A stretch of 64,000 bases of DNA from Candidatus Fermentithermobacillaceae bacterium (GTDB lineage Bacteria > Bacillota > Sulfobacillia > Fermentithermobacillales > Fermentithermobacillaceae). Under the pieces are notes generated by a model. The model was not told the origin of the DNA, searched no databases, and worked only from the letters and a program-made list of their open reading frames with translations. The stretch covers positions 1 to 64,000 of the forward strand of contig JAGPNG010000002.1 of the NCBI GenBank assembly GCA_018052475.1, in the 5' to 3' direction. Both the position numbers and the translations under genes were made by a program. Shown here piece after piece: positions 4,085 through 10,817 of the stretch (the stretch's first letter is position 1; each line of letters begins with the position of its first letter).

Positions 4085-4608
4085 AGAGGCACAGTTTCTT
4101 CATCTGTCTTAGCTGCCTCGTTGTGCCACGGAGTCAATTCTTCAGGCAGGTTTTTTATGAGATTGAAAAGATCAGGACCGATGACGGATGTATGGCCGTT
4201 GTTCATTGGCAGAAGGATGCGTTGAATAGTTTGGACAAATTCCTTATCATTTTTCGTGGCAGTGATCGCTGATTCGAACTCGCTTTTGTGGGCTACCAAG
4301 TCGTAGCCTTCCACTCGTGTTTTCAGCGCTAAGTAGGGGTGGTTGTCTTTTAAAACATCCAACATGAGACGAAAATCTTCCAGTTATTCCTCAGCTGTTA
4401 GTTGGGGTTCTGCCTTAGGAACGCAGGAACTGAGTACAGTTGCGCTTACGATCACAAGGATCGCCAAGGCAGTTATGAGGAAATGATTCCTAGATGAAGC
4501 ATTAGAAGAAGCAGAAGAAGCAAAAGGGACGGGGGTTTTTGCTTCACTCTTTGCCCTGTGGCGGCGCCCCTTATGAGCATCTTTATTAGGAGGCAAACGG
4601 ATCAGCAT
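4081..4608 (-). pseudogene. Broken S41-peptidase-like lipoprotein gene (in-frame stop, catalytic domain missing)
   Basis: Two open segments on the minus strand, 4608-4384 and 4383-4081, are in the same frame and separated only by one TAA at 4386-4384. The first encodes a basic N-terminus, a hydrophobic helix (LITALAILVIVSATV) and an LSSC lipobox. Across the TAA the protein reads AEE-stop-LEDFRLMLDVLKDNHPYL, the usual start of the N-terminal domain of S41 (C-terminal-processing-type) lipoproteins. NNGHTSVI follows, then the protein ends soon after, with no protease domain. A Tyr-to-stop change (TAC/TAT to TAA) would explain the stop. It lies three bases after the response regulator gene, on the same strand. 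Confidence 0.65.
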
Positions 4609-4610
4609 TC

Positions 4611-5234
4611 TTATTCGACGCTCCTGAGATAGAATATAGCCAACTGTGTGCGATCTCTCAGATCAAGTTTCTCTAGGATCGCGCTTACGTAATTACGCAC
4701 TGTGCCTTCGCTAAGGTGTAGCGTGTCTGCAATGTCTCGGTTATTCAACCCTTTTGCTACCATCTCCATGATCTCTTCTTCTCTTTTGGTAATGCCAAGG
4801 TCGGACATATTAGGTTTTTGCCCATTTCTGACTAGGGTGGATAGTTTGGTCACAATTGCATCTCCAAACACATTCTGACCGTTCTGTGCTGCCTTCAAAG
4901 CTGGAATGATGCTTTCAAAATCCTGTTTAAGTATGTACCCTTTTGCCCCTAGTCTTAGAGCTTCTACAATATATTTATCATCTGAGAACGTGGTGAGAAA
5001 CAAAACTCGTGCGTCGGGGAACTGTTTCAAAATGCTCTCGCAGGCCTCAATCCCGGTCATTTTCGGCATGCGGATATCCATGAGCACTACGTCCGGCTGA
5101 AGTTCTGCGAACAGTTCTACGGCCTCGATTCCATCTGAGGCAATTCCGATGACTTCAATGCTGCCGTCTGCTTGGAGAATTGTTTTAAGGGATTGGCAGA
5201 CCAGCGGGTCATCATCTGCTATGAGTACTCGCAT
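4611..5234 (-). CDS. Response regulator, NarL/FixJ (LiaR/DesR) type
   Basis: A 207-residue DNA-binding response regulator. The receiver domain (residues 1-120) has the acidic pocket Asp7-Asp8-Asp9, phospho-acceptor Asp53 in VVLMDIRMPKMTG, switch Thr81/82 and Lys103 in GAKGYILK. The LuxR-type HTH (about 143-207) shows ITKREEEIMEMVAKGLNNRDIADTL and SEGTVRNYVSAILEKL. It overlaps the 3' end of the upstream histidine kinase gene by 23 bases, so the two are co-translated partners. The nearest plausible target is the divergent exporter operon and the palindrome array at 6652-7120; that link is inference. Confidence 0.95.
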   Translation of the reverse strand: MRVLIADDDPLVCQSLKTILQADGSIEVIGIASDGIEAVELFAELQPDVVLMDIRMPKMTGIEACESILKQFPDARVLFLTTFSDDKYIVEALRLGAKGYILKQDFESIIPALKAAQNGQNVFGDAIVTKLSTLVRNGQKPNMSDLGITKREEEIMEMVAKGLNNRDIADTLHLSEGTVRNYVSAILEKLDLRDRTQLAIFYLRSVE

Positions 5235-6390
5235 AGAACTCCCTCCTTTTCGGAACCGAGATAAACAGTCTAAAACCCCTTTTTCTCTCCATTACAAATT
5301 GCCCGTCTAGGGCTCTAGCTCTATCTTCTATGCTACGAAGGCCGAGACCTTCTCCTGAATCGAGCTGCTGATTGGTGCCATTGTCCTGAATTATGAGTTG
5401 GTAGAGGGCGGGATGTTCTACAAGCGTGATAGTGACCAAAGTGGCATTTGAGTGACGGGCAACATTGTTCAGGGCTTCCTTAATCACGGCTATGAAACAG
5501 TATGCAATGGCCTTATCAGGTTCGTTCTGCAATCTATAATCTGTGCGTGACTGGCAGAAAGTAAATTCCTCTGTAATGGCCTGAACCTGCGTTTTGAGAT
5601 CGATTGATTCATCGTGCAGACCGTGAACGCTTGTTCGTATGCTGTCCATTGCTTGAGACAATGTGCCGCGGATGTGATCTAGGTTTTCCTTCTTTTTGTC
5701 GTCAGTTTCGGTGACCATTAGGGCGCCTATTTGAAGAATTGACCTGGACAAAAGATGACCTACGTGGTCGTGAATCTCGCGGGCAATACGACCCCTTTCA
5801 TTCAGGGTTGCAAGCCTGACTTCGTAATCTTGTTTTTCTAGAAGTTCTCGATTCTTTTCCGCTAAGAGCACAGTCCTTTCGTAGGTGTCGTCGCGTAGTC
5901 TCTTGGTCAGATTTCGGCTGTACTCTAGCGCTTTTCGACGGGAAACTAACGCATAAGATACCGCCATTAGGGCGCTAATCGTCAAAAACGCTTCGAAGGA
6001 TAGGCGTGCCAAGGATACTGCAAGGGCTCCTAATACTAATGAAACCCACATTGCTGAGGTTCCACTGCCTTGATTGGGCGGAGCAACTGAAGAATCGGCG
6101 TGTGGAGGGAAGTGTCTTTCATCTTGTTGTATAGTAGTTCTCTTGATTTTACCCATCGCGTCGTAACATACCAAAGGCAAGAAGCTGCAGAATGCTGGTG
6201 ATACGATACATAGGAAGATATACAAGGTTGTGGTGGTTATTACGGCTTTGTCGGATCGGTTATAGCCGTTTATAGCGCTAACCGTGATTGCACATAAAAG
6301 TGACACTACGGCTGCAATTTCGTTTGCGTTTGCCGGAACAAAGACCAAACAGCAGATTATAAGGAGTAGTCTGTCGGCCGCGCTTTGCAT
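5212..6390 (-). CDS. Sensor histidine kinase, HisKA_3 (LiaS/DesK) type
   Basis: A 392-residue membrane kinase. Hydrophobic segments lie at about residues 6-20, 24-41, 50-77 and 114-150, with almost no extracytoplasmic domain, which suggests sensing within the membrane. After a coiled-coil-like linker (160-195) comes the HisKA_3 box NERGRIAREIHDHVGHLL with phospho-acceptor His207. The HATPase domain follows, with NNVARHSNATLVTI (N box), IQDNGTNQQ and GEGLGLRSIEDRA (G boxes). A GGTGAGG ribosome binding site precedes the ATG. It overlaps the response regulator gene. Neighbouring ABC exporter genes suggest a cell-envelope or drug-stress role. Confidence 0.93.
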   Translation of the reverse strand: MQSAADRLLLIICCLVFVPANANEIAAVVSLLCAITVSAINGYNRSDKAVITTTTLYIFLCIVSPAFCSFLPLVCYDAMGKIKRTTIQQDERHFPPHADSSVAPPNQGSGTSAMWVSLVLGALAVSLARLSFEAFLTISALMAVSYALVSRRKALEYSRNLTKRLRDDTYERTVLLAEKNRELLEKQDYEVRLATLNERGRIAREIHDHVGHLLSRSILQIGALMVTETDDKKKENLDHIRGTLSQAMDSIRTSVHGLHDESIDLKTQVQAITEEFTFCQSRTDYRLQNEPDKAIAYCFIAVIKEALNNVARHSNATLVTITLVEHPALYQLIIQDNGTNQQLDSGEGLGLRSIEDRARALDGQFVMERKRGFRLFISVPKRREFYASTHSR

Positions 6391-6651: not shown

Positions 6652-7120
6652 GATTGGCTCATCCGACGTACCACTTCTTCTTGATTAATAGTGTAGCGCG
6701 CAGAAGTGGCTCATCTGGTGGACCAGTTCTATCTATGGGAGCCTCATTAGTAGCTGAAGTGGCTCACTTGGTGAGCCACTTCCTTATCAAAACGTGTTGC
6801 GGTATGTTTCATTGAGCCAAAGTGGCTCATGTAGTAGACCACTTTCGATTATAAGAGATTCATCGTTGGCCGAAGTGGCTCATGTGGTGGGCCACTTGTA
6901 TCTATGGGAGCCTCATTAGTAGCTGAAGTGGCTCACTTGGTGAGCCACTTCCTTATCAAAACGTGTTGCAGTATGTTTCATTGAGACAAAATGGCTCGTG
7001 TAGTAGACCACTTTCGATTATAAGAGATTCATCGTTGGCCCAAGTGGCTCATGTGGTGGGCCACTTGTGTCTATGGGAGCCTCATTAATAGTTGAAGTGG
7101 CTCACTTAGTGAGCCACTTC
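6652..7120. promoter_or_regulatory. Array of nine palindromes phased at 5 and 6 helical turns; candidate operator array
   Basis: Nine 25-27-bp palindromes start (aligned on AAGTGG) at 6652, 6704, 6757, 6820, 6873, 6926, 6989, 7042 and 7095. The best ones (6756-6782, 6925-6951, 7094-7120) have perfect 12-bp arms GAAGTGGCTCAC / GTGAGCCACTTC around a 3-base centre. Spacings are 52, 53, 63, 53, 53, 63, 53 and 53 bp, close to 5 or 6 turns of B-DNA, so all sites face the same side of the helix. The array lies between the divergent kinase-regulator and exporter operons. Binding of the NarL-type regulator is a reasonable guess; hairpin-forming RNA or a mobile repeat are alternatives. Confidence 0.6.
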
Positions 7121-7123: not shown

Positions 7124-7481
7124 TGCGTTTAGGGTTGTGTCAACTAGAATCCTATGACCCTACGGAACTCAGACAGGTTCAGACAAGTCCGGTGGCAACC
7201 GCAGTGCCTACCGCATTACTGAGATAACAAACAGTGGTAGAATCGGTAATTTCGTGACTTTTGTCACCTCGAAAATGTGAGTACAAACACTTACCGTAAG
7301 AAACACGGAAGGAGTAATGTGGTGGTACAGGGTATGGGTCACCAGTAAACAGATCTATTGCGATGATTTGCGGGGATACTAGATACGATTGGATTTTTGA
7401 GTCCAATTAATTTTCCCCACGAAAACTGTTTCGAAAAATGTCACAGAAATCAAATGGTATCGATAGTCTGGAGGAGTGCTT
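7124..7481. other. Upstream region of the exporter operon, no gene
   Basis: These 358 bases between the palindrome array and the ABC ATPase gene contain no credible coding region. I see one further small inverted repeat, ATTGGA / TCCAAT at 7388-7407, about 75 bases before the start codon. This is a possible second operator or promoter element. The ribosome binding site of the next gene, GGAGGAG, is at 7470-7476. Confidence 0.4.
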
Positions 7482-8414
7482 ATGATCATTGAGATACAGA
7501 GCCTGGTCAAGCGGTACGGGAATTTGGTTGCGTTGGATCACTTCAACTTGGAGGTAAGCGAAGGCGAGATCGTGGGTTTGCTGGGCCCTAACGGCTCCGG
7601 CAAGACCACTCTCATAAACTGCGTTTTATCGTTGCTCAAGTACGATAAGGGGACTATTAGAGTATTCGGGAAAGAAATGAGGCCGGATGCGTATGACATA
7701 AAACAGAGAATTGGCATTGTTATGCAAAACGTAGCTGTTTTCAGAGAATTGCGGGTAGACGAAAACGTAGACTATTTTTGCGGGTTGTATGTCAAAGATG
7801 CTGCTGCTCGTCGCCAGTTAGTGGACGAAGCGATTGACTTTGTCGAATTGGACGCTTTTCGGAAGTTCTACCCGAGGAAACTTTCGGGCGGATTGTTGCG
7901 CAGGCTGAATATAGCATGTGGCATTGTCCACAAGCCGGAACTTCTGATACTAGATGAGCCTACGGTAGGCGTAGATCCTCAGAGCAGAAACAGCATTCTT
8001 GAAGGCATACGAGAACTCAATCGCCAAGGGACCACCGTACTTTATACCTCCCACTACATGGAAGAAGTCGAGCAACTGTGCAATCGAGTGGTGATCATGG
8101 ATCAAGGGAAGCCGCTGGCTACAGGCACAATTGAGGAACTTAAGGCTATGGTGAACAGCGGAGAAACTGTAGTGGTGGAGATTTACAAATTGGAGTCTGA
8201 AGACCTTGATAGAATTCAACAGCTCCCCAATGTATCGAGAGCATACTATGAAGATGACCACCTTACAGTGCATTTCGACGGTGGACTTCATAACCTTCTT
8301 AACCTCCTCGACTATTTGAAATCGCGAGAGATATCTTTCAACAGGGTGTTTTCACAGCAACCTACCCTAAATGATGTGTTCCTCGAGATTACCGGCAAGC
8401 AGCTTAGAGAATGA
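7482..8414 (+). CDS. ABC exporter ATP-binding protein (ABC-2 type)
   Basis: The 310-residue ATPase of an exporter. Walker A is GPNGSGKT at residues 35-42, the Q-loop lies in IVMQNVAVFREL, Walker B is LLILDEPTVGVDP, and a switch His is in LYTSHYMEE. The signature reads LSGGLLRRL, with Leu where most have Gln or Met. The C-terminal ~90 residues are the usual extension of drug/antibiotic exporters (DrrA-like). I start at ATG 7482, five bases after GGAGGAG; an in-frame GTG at 7476 overlaps that site. First gene of a three-gene exporter operon with two membrane partners directly downstream. Confidence 0.93.
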   Translation: MIIEIQSLVKRYGNLVALDHFNLEVSEGEIVGLLGPNGSGKTTLINCVLSLLKYDKGTIRVFGKEMRPDAYDIKQRIGIVMQNVAVFRELRVDENVDYFCGLYVKDAAARRQLVDEAIDFVELDAFRKFYPRKLSGGLLRRLNIACGIVHKPELLILDEPTVGVDPQSRNSILEGIRELNRQGTTVLYTSHYMEEVEQLCNRVVIMDQGKPLATGTIEELKAMVNSGETVVVEIYKLESEDLDRIQQLPNVSRAYYEDDHLTVHFDGGLHNLLNLLDYLKSREISFNRVFSQQPTLNDVFLEITGKQLRE

Positions 8415-8427
8415 GGAGGATGAGGAA

Positions 8428-9582
8428 ATGTTTGGGCACGTGTTTAGCTACAGGCTGAAATGTCTTGTTCGGGATAGGGATTTGGTTTTCTGGACCCTTA
8501 TTTTCTCGATTCTACTGGGCACCATGTTTCACGTTGCCTTTGGTCATCTGACTACCGAATCAGAGAAGTTTCAGCCCATAGAAGTAGCCGTGGTAGATAA
8601 CGAAGATTACAGAAATGATCCATTCCTGCAGGCTATCTTGGAGGAATTGTCTTCGGCAGGACAAAATCGCATGCTTGACCTGGTCTATGCCGATGAAAAA
8701 GGTGCTGAGGAGTTACTCAATGAAGGAGCGGTTTCGGGCATCATAACCGCAGGCGAACCTGTAAGACTCACAGTAAAGGAACCGGGCATATATCAGAGCA
8801 TACTTAAAATGATCCTAGATGAGCACCTACAGACAACTAAGACTGTTGCTAACATAATATCGAGGAATCCCCAGGTTGTTTCTGACCTCATAGAAGGAAT
8901 GCAAAGCGAAAATGGTTACCGAAGGGACTACACAGAGCAGATATCTTTTTCGGGTGTTGTTCCAAATATGAACCTCGTCTATTTCTACGCACTCTTGGCT
9001 ATGGCCTGTATGTATAGCGGTTTCTGGGGTCTGCGCAATGCTATCGATATTCAAGCAGATCTCTCCGATCTGGGCGCGCGGCGGAGCGTTGCACCTACTC
9101 ACAAGATGGTGGTAGTCCTAGCAGATTCGGCGGCGGCTTTAGTGATAAGTTTTTCTGAGATATTGATTCTTTTAGCCTATCTCTCCCTTGCATTGGGAGT
9201 TAAGTTTGGCAGTCAAATTGGTTATGTGATGCTGACCTGTCTGGCGGGGTGCATAGCCGGCGTCTCATATGGAAGCTTCATAGGCACGTTAGTACGTGGA
9301 CATGAGGGTGTAAAGACAGGGATCTTGATTGGGTCGACCATGGCAATGAGTTTTTTGGCGGGTTTGATGTGGGTTGATATGAAGTACATCGTTTCGGTGA
9401 AGGTACCCTTTCTTTCCTACATGAACCCCGCTGCTCTTATAGCTGATGCCTTCTACAGTCTCTACGTATTCGATACCCATCGTCGGTTCTTCATTAATAT
9501 AGGGATGCTATGCCTCATCTCAGCGGTTTTCTGTGTAGCTAGCTTTGCAATACTGAGGAGGGACGAGTATGCAAGTATTTAG
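8428..9582 (+). CDS. ABC-2 type exporter permease, first subunit
   Basis: A 384-residue membrane protein. One helix near the N-terminus (LVFWTLIFSILLGTMFHVAF) is followed by a ~170-residue extracytoplasmic region, then five helices from about residue 190 to the end, the layout of ABC-2 permeases. FLSYMNPAALIADAFYSLYVF matches the conserved N-P-A/I-x-x-I-x-D-A-F segment before the last helix. The ATG at 8428 follows AGGAGGATGAGG, 13 bases after the ATPase stop. It overlaps the second permease by 14 bases, so the two probably form a heterodimer in the membrane. Substrate unknown. Confidence 0.9.
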   Translation: MFGHVFSYRLKCLVRDRDLVFWTLIFSILLGTMFHVAFGHLTTESEKFQPIEVAVVDNEDYRNDPFLQAILEELSSAGQNRMLDLVYADEKGAEELLNEGAVSGIITAGEPVRLTVKEPGIYQSILKMILDEHLQTTKTVANIISRNPQVVSDLIEGMQSENGYRRDYTEQISFSGVVPNMNLVYFYALLAMACMYSGFWGLRNAIDIQADLSDLGARRSVAPTHKMVVVLADSAAALVISFSEILILLAYLSLALGVKFGSQIGYVMLTCLAGCIAGVSYGSFIGTLVRGHEGVKTGILIGSTMAMSFLAGLMWVDMKYIVSVKVPFLSYMNPAALIADAFYSLYVFDTHRRFFINIGMLCLISAVFCVASFAILRRDEYASI

Positions 9583-10744
9583 GGCATATTTCAAGGTCAT
9601 GCGCGGTGCCGTGGGGAGTTTGGCGATTAACTCCGTTGTGTTTATAGGGCTTGCGGTGCTGTTTTCATTTATTGCGCCTCAAGCCAGACCAATGGGCTTT
9701 GAGCAGACCCGGGTTCCTGTGGCAATTATAAATAGAGATACAGATGGAGAGATATCCCGTGGGCTTACACAGTATCTGGAAAAGGTGTGCAAGGTTGTAG
9801 ATTGTCCCGACGAACCTGAGAGACTTCAGGATGCGCTGTTTCATCGACAAATTGAGTATGTTGCCATTATCCCATCCGGTTTTTCAGATGCATTTATATC
9901 CGGAGAAAAGTGCATTATCCAAAAGATAATCGTTCCGGGATCTACTGAGAGTTACTATGTGGACATCATCATTAACAGATTCCTCGATACTGTGAATCTC
10001 TACAAGACGTATGGAGGAACAGGTGAGAGCGACTCATTGTCGTGGATCATTTCATCGGCAATGGACGATCTCCAAGTTGAGGTACCGGTTACGATGATAG
10101 GTCAAGCGGCGGTTAGTGTGGAATATCAAACAGGTTATCACTACTACTTCAATTACTGCGCATACGCCCTGCTTGCTCTCATAACAATAGGTGTGAGCAC
10201 GATCATGATTAGTTTCAATGAACCTGACCTTTACATGCGCAATTTGTGTTCTCCGCTTCCAAGAAGGCGCATGAATCTGGAGTTGGCTGCAGGTCATACT
10301 GTATTTGCCGTAGGATGCTGGGGGATCCTCATGATTGGCGGTCTAATCATGCACGGTAAGAGCGTGTTTAAGGCCGGTGTCTTAGGATCGTACTCCCTGA
10401 ACACCCTTTCTTTTACTCTCGTATGTGCCTCTATCGGTCTTCTCATAGGCACCTTCGTGAGAAGCCAAAACGCTCAACAAGGAGTAGTAAACGTAGTTAC
10501 TTTGGGACTATGCTTCTTAGGCGGAGTATATGTTCCCCAGTCCATAATGAGCAAACCGGTTCTTGCCGTGAGCAAGTTTCTGCCATCTTACTGGTTCGTA
10601 AAAGCTAACGATGCCATCTCACTTCTGTCGGACCCGAGTCCTCAAAACCTAGGGGCAATACACACCAGTATGCTCATCCAAGTAGCATTTGCCGTGGCCA
10701 TTTTCTCCATAACCCTATTTTTTAGCAAAGAACGTGAAGCGTAG
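9569..10744 (+). CDS. ABC-2 type exporter permease, second subunit
   Basis: A 391-residue paralogue of the preceding permease with the same layout. It has an N-terminal helix (VGSLAINSVVFIGLAVLFSFI), a large external domain beginning VPVAIINRDTDGEISRGL (typical of the YhgE/ABC-2 family), and a helix bundle from about residue 195. SKFLPSYWFVKANDAI resembles the conserved segment before the last helix. GAGGAGGGACGAG upstream lies inside the first permease gene, whose end it overlaps by 14 bases. It is the last gene of the exporter operon; a long inverted repeat follows at once. Confidence 0.9.
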   Translation: MQVFRAYFKVMRGAVGSLAINSVVFIGLAVLFSFIAPQARPMGFEQTRVPVAIINRDTDGEISRGLTQYLEKVCKVVDCPDEPERLQDALFHRQIEYVAIIPSGFSDAFISGEKCIIQKIIVPGSTESYYVDIIINRFLDTVNLYKTYGGTGESDSLSWIISSAMDDLQVEVPVTMIGQAAVSVEYQTGYHYYFNYCAYALLALITIGVSTIMISFNEPDLYMRNLCSPLPRRRMNLELAAGHTVFAVGCWGILMIGGLIMHGKSVFKAGVLGSYSLNTLSFTLVCASIGLLIGTFVRSQNAQQGVVNVVTLGLCFLGGVYVPQSIMSKPVLAVSKFLPSYWFVKANDAISLLSDPSPQNLGAIHTSMLIQVAFAVAIFSITLFFSKEREA

Positions 10745-10817
10745 GGTGAAGCATAGGGGACGGTCCTTTCTGCTTCAGGCTATGAGAAGCGGGAGGGACA
10801 GCCCTTTTGCTGCACCC
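10744..10817. repeat. Imperfect 32-bp inverted repeat after the exporter operon
   Basis: GGGTGAAGCATAGGGGACGG... at 10744 pairs, with a few mismatches, with ...GACAGCCCTTTTGCTGCACCC ending at 10817, leaving a ~9-base centre. The arms include the GGGGAC / GTCCCT type motif. There is no T-run, so it is not a standard terminator. It may be a small non-autonomous mobile repeat or a stem-loop protecting the exporter mRNA. The remainder of the 183-base gap to the next gene holds no ORF. Confidence 0.5.

Follow-up and report, generated by a model that had tools for sequence, protein, structure and literature searches.

The question raised by this locus is what an array of palindromes is doing between a histidine kinase–response regulator pair and an ABC exporter operon, and whether it serves these neighbours at all. 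Nine 25-bp palindromes are located within positions 6652–7119 of the window (the whole stretch of 64,000 nucleotides that was analyzed), and their successive starts lie 52, 53, 63, 53, 53, 63, 53, and 53 bp apart. An earlier note on this DNA had described the same elements, and its structural claims were recovered in full: the palindromes and their start-to-start spacings exactly, the perfect 12-bp arms at 6756–6782 and 6925–6951 (accompanied by 13-bp arms at 7094–7120), the 169-bp duplication at 95% identity, and the phase of the decayed first unit. We consider the array to belong to a dispersed family of palindrome arrays in helical phase, whose units would each be bound by a protein dimer that assembles cooperatively with its neighbours, and assign this joint reading a probability of roughly 0.55.

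The units and the higher-order repeat are as follows:

6652–6676, no strand: palindrome unit 1, decayed (GATTGGCTCATCCGACGTACCACTT), matching 15/20 consensus positions; unit 2 starts 52 bp on
6704–6728, no strand: palindrome unit 2, 17/20
6757–6781, no strand: palindrome unit 3, 20/20, perfect 12-bp arms with flanks (6756–6782)
6820–6844, no strand: palindrome unit 4, 17/20, a step of 63 bp from unit 3
6873–6897, no strand: palindrome unit 5, 19/20
6926–6950, no strand: palindrome unit 6, 20/20, perfect 12-bp arms (6925–6951)
6989–7013, no strand: palindrome unit 7, 15/20, a step of 63 bp from unit 6
7042–7066, no strand: palindrome unit 8, 19/20
7095–7119, no strand: palindrome unit 9, 20/20, perfect 13-bp arms with flanks (7094–7120)
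6700–7037, no strand: 169-bp higher-order unit, two tandem copies with three palindromes each

The 1.09-kb intergenic region holds nine units that match at least 14 of the 20 consensus positions, whereas 500 dinucleotide shuffles of the same region averaged 0.036 such units and never gave more than 1. In the duplication, 6700–6868 is repeated as 6869–7037 and units 2–4 correspond to units 5–7; the two 63-bp steps must therefore be counted as a single event, because the duplication copied them. The rest of the genome (1.40 Mb, 23 contigs) contains no further copy of the palindrome at up to 3 mismatches. No phage or plasmid match to the array was found, and matches to viral contigs were rejected as chance or as a different repeat. 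A short dispersed repeat, GCAAAAGGGACGGGGGTTTTTGCTTCA, is present at 4517–4546 and again at 10747–10777 and belongs to a family distinct from the palindromes, with copies 87–100% identical in contigs C79 and C123 of the related genome G001, which belongs to the same genus. Contig C123 (DGFF01000021; L015 1–50) starts with apparent sequencing-adapter sequence (...AGATGTGTATAAGAGACAG), an assembly artefact.

The neighbouring operons

The array is flanked on one side by the kinase–regulator pair (4611–6390, minus strand) and on the other by an ABC exporter operon of DrrA type (7476–10744, plus strand). The following features are relevant:

4611–5234, minus strand: NarL/LuxR-type response regulator
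5212–6390, minus strand: histidine kinase (HisKA_3), with an ortholog in G002 that has no array
7476–8414, plus strand: ABC exporter ATPase (DrrA-like)
about 7255–7266, no strand: TGACTTTTGTCA, a palindrome preceding the exporter that G000 and G002 retain and G001 carries with one change

The earlier note had proposed that the array controls both divergent operons; as a local operator, it would be bound by the response regulator or another regulator. The placement of phased sites between two divergent operons would suit this role, and the arrangement may extend to G001, in which the exporter region is 97% identical from window position 7132 onward and the contig ends at that point, 12 bp from the last palindrome. 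An array at the G001 exporter locus is likely, because the contig end there resembles an assembly break at a repeat. An operator array would, however, be expected to accompany its regulator and target operon wherever both persist. In G002, a member of the same genus, kinase and exporter (67% and 77% identical, respectively) are again arranged divergently, and the 464-bp intergenic stretch between them lacks the array palindrome. A different palindrome, TGACTTTTGTCA (TGAC-N4-GTCA), is conserved upstream of the exporter both with and without the array and lies closer to the exporter start; it is the likelier local regulator site of the two and a candidate site for the neighbouring response regulator. 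A TGACAATTGTCA upstream of the G013 exporter is a candidate of the same kind.

The arrays of relatives also speak against local control. They are intergenic, and their flanking genes, named by eye from their sequences and only in some cases by Pfam, are functionally unrelated: livF-like, ddl, murD, leuS-like, M42-like peptidase, XRE regulator, EamA transporter, and secD genes, among many others, with arrays often located downstream of them. The claim of operon control is thus not upheld, and we regard a local operator as quite improbable. The histidine kinase probably plays no part in what the array does, and an array can thus adjoin a regulator and an exporter without being related to either.

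Arrays in related genomes

Across 154 genomes of the class, arrays were sought with a two-unit pattern (TGGNNCA-N5-TGNNCCA twice, 53 bp apart, with up to 3 mismatches). Unit pairs numbered 5 in G000 and 9 in G001, and, in genus g4 of the same family (Ca. Fermentithermobacillaceae), 27 in G005, 59 in G008, 135 in G010, 73 in G012, and 4 in G013; with the same pattern and threshold none occurred in G002 or the remaining genomes of the family, while the rest of the class gave a scatter of 0–3 pairs, near the 0–1 of a reversed-pattern control. The relatives' genomes are drafts, and these counts are lower bounds because arrays break contigs. In a phylum-wide sample of 398 genomes, scanned at up to 1 mismatch, the only arrays outside the family were those of three genomes of one genus in another family and class (5, 8, and 6 pairs; control zero), where the unit is GATTGGCTCAC-CAC-GTGAGCCAATC and the step likewise 53 bp. 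A scan of named genomes with AAGTGGCTCA pairs, which is blind to other half-site variants, gave no array of this palindrome at the 53-bp step beyond two G001 contigs. Arrays are present in G000, G001, the g4 genomes, G399, G486, and G506 and lacking in G002, g2, g3, g5, G303, and G376. G001 itself has three more arrays on other contigs, near an HTH protein, a bioY-like gene, and a gene without assignment. The earlier note had held that many copies elsewhere would count against a binding array; the genome of the window has no further copies, whereas relatives have up to 135 unit pairs per genome. Since this genome carries a single array and G002 none, the function is not essential to the genus.

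Inheritance can be followed at several loci among the g4 species, with arrays kept at orthologous positions beside the livF-like gene in three species and beside the ddl, XRE, and M42-like peptidase genes in two each. Genes about the arrays are convergent in 8 cases, tandem in 14, and divergent in 4. Two arrays in different species, at 4476–4659 of locus L252 (G005) and 4928–5323 of L298 (G010), have near-identical units and spacers beside an ABC ATPase gene that is 99% identical, which suggests recent horizontal transfer or cross-binning. In G008, an array (L247 5034–5282) lies between tandem paralogous EamA-type transporter genes that are 50% identical.

This distribution brings in the possibility of a passive repeat resembling REP/BIME elements, spreading by slippage or recombination and having at most a generic role, for example as a topoisomerase target. 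The arrays share with such elements their intergenic position, clustering of short palindromes, and many copies in some genomes, and the tandem duplication within arrays, the L252/L298 pair, and the larger number of 3′ than 5′ gene flanks (40 vs 30) would also fit. REP/BIME elements are RAYT-associated repeats with a GTAG or CGTC tag (PMC3733652). The array units, by contrast, run in one register without alternating and at an exact step, and position counts of oriented g4 units, inspected by eye, gave no constant unpaired tetranucleotide at the unit edges. The RAYT-type Y1 transposase family (PF01797) is absent from G001 and from G005, G008, G010, G012, and G013, leaving no g4 genome with a copy, and is found once in G000 and twice in the array-less G002; a RAYT origin was rejected, as the transposase is missing where arrays are commonest. 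Spacers diverge while the arms and the 53-bp step persist, and retention at orthologous loci likewise argues against passive spread, which we consider unlikely overall.

Helical step, arms, and half-sites

Among adjacent steps in all fetched arrays, 53 bp was observed 253 times, 52 bp 11 times, 54 bp 7 times, and 51 bp once, and the other steps were 43 (12), 42 (1), 63 (4), 64 (2), and 74 bp (1), the few remaining values involving weak, probably chance sites. The 53-bp step is thus nearly invariant, and departures from it are mostly whole helical turns (42–43, 63–64, 74). With 10.5 bp taken as one turn, the preference for whole turns gave a mean cosine of 0.75 (p about 4e-4 relative to uniform shifts) in a post hoc test of only eight events, each counted once, several of shared ancestry, and excluding the 64-bp step of G008, which adjoins an N. 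In one G010 array of 13 units, every step is exactly 53 bp or a multiple of it, save one of 54 bp, and exact 53-bp steps recur in a genus of another class as well as in two genera of the family. Part of this regularity is copying, because some arrays contain units that are plain tandem duplicates. Exact helical spacing over dozens of loci in two genera and a second class is a strong sign of a protein assembly that requires every site to lie on one face of the DNA.

At L254 6188–6420 of G010, about 0.9 kb from a 53-bp array, a separate tandem repeat, GAGTGAGCCAACATTTGGCACAGTG, has steps of 52 and 78 bp. Records from Lentzea and Nocardia (L058 4378–4454, L092, L101, L102, and L106) contain a pair of AAGTGGCTCAGCCACT-type sites separated by 52 bp. 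These paired palindromes, which are conserved across species, are similarly spaced on the helix but unrelated to the arrays.

A fixed period of 25-bp repeats and 28-bp spacers could also describe a degenerate CRISPR-like array, since repeat size, spacer size, and period all fit. The near-identical repeats and unrelated spacers of a CRISPR array are not what was found: repeats within one array differ from each other, different arrays have homologous spacers in common, and the step changes in jumps of whole turns, so that this explanation is scarcely credible.

The arms themselves are conserved well beyond their surroundings. Two paralogous G001 arrays are 95% identical in the arms, 68% in the spacers, and 60% in the palindrome centres. 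In g4, all 166 of 166 units have GG/CC at unit positions 5–6, a constancy that is partly built into the scan pattern, while at unit position 7 the two sides vary as Y/R but do not covary. The spacers of the g4 arrays also contain a T-rich motif, weak but directional, that lies roughly two turns away from the centre of the palindrome. The half-site variant tends to be TG in the dispersed loci of G008, G010, and G012, TA in 17 of 18 half-sites of G013, and CT in G000, G001, and g215 of the other class, with G005 mixed. One half-site variant across the dispersed loci of a genome is expected if a single trans-acting protein reads the sites.

The same arms could instead pair in RNA, the array being transcribed as a chain of hairpins that stabilizes, terminates, or is processed. 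Perfect units do fold strongly as RNA (unit 3 at -20.6 kcal/mol, z -4.7), and unit 9 resembles a terminator on the plus strand, but weaker units fold poorly and RNA would have no need of whole-turn spacing. Mismatched arm pairs comprise 85 G–T, 126 A–C, and 145 others with no consistent strand, showing neither a wobble preference nor the one-strand pairing that a structured RNA keeps through wobble or compensatory changes, and no Rfam family matches the array. A role as RNA hairpins is accordingly very unlikely, and the evidence as a whole favours double-stranded DNA sites for a dimeric protein that would assemble cooperatively on one DNA face. Of the cooperative protein-binding array proposed in the earlier note, the phased step, the conservation of arms over spacers, and DNA-like pairing statistics stand, while operon control does not.

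The proposed assembly and known systems

In the proposed mechanism, the 25-bp unit, whose core is TGG-Y-N-CA-N5-TG-N-R-CCA, most likely serves as a double-stranded DNA site for a dimer of one protein encoded elsewhere in the genome. A step of 53 bp spans about five turns, and the occasional other steps span four, six, or seven; such spacing would place all dimers on one face, where neighbours could touch and build a continuous nucleoprotein structure, both here and at tens of intergenic loci in relatives. Such a structure may organize or mark the chromosome, in a centromere-like, compacting, or silencing capacity, instead of switching adjacent operons. We infer the binding protein, its cooperative binding, and the chromosomal role from the sites, their spacing, arm conservation, dispersal, and half-sites, and from the lack of wobble bias. 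A chromosomal role is favoured over an operator role because the arrays are dispersed over many loci and stably inherited. An HTH-nuclease-like protein encoded beside arrays (L015 700–1422 in G001; L296 3913–4698 in G010) was considered as the binding partner and rejected, because array-less genomes encode it whereas G000, G399, and G506 do not.

A broader reading, which we hold only tentatively, is that these arrays represent a previously undescribed chromosome-organizing or chromosome-marking system of Bacillota, in which one dimeric protein would act on dozens of phased arrays, with site and protein co-diverging by lineage across two classes. If a single protein does read the arrays, bacteria of this branch would have a new way of marking or folding their chromosome. 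The naturally occurring steps of 43, 53, 63, and 74 bp provide ready-made test DNA. A search of the open-licence literature found no description of 53-bp phased palindrome arrays.

Chromosomal organizers of the parS/ParB type use palindromic sites at several chromosomal loci for one dimeric protein, as is proposed for the arrays. Chromosomal parS-type sites are mostly single, whereas the palindromes described here stand in phased arrays. To our knowledge, TGGYNCA-N5-TGNRCCA equals no known chromosome-organizer site.

The closest known architecture is that of sopC (parS-F), the centromere of the F plasmid, in which a 43-bp repeat occurs twelve times and every copy includes a 16-bp inverted repeat to which a dimer of SopB/ParB-F binds (PMC9178275). 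Like sopC, the arrays are made of tandem inverted repeats at a fixed step near whole helical turns, and 43 bp, the period of sopC, recurs among them as a minor step. They differ in their main step of 53 bp, in a longer and different palindrome, and in spacers that are almost free to vary, and no parA or parB genes were seen among the flanking proteins read beside them. The arrays are not classed as members of the sopC type because sopC occupies one site on a plasmid and comes with Par genes of its own, while the palindrome arrays occupy tens of intergenic loci on the chromosome.
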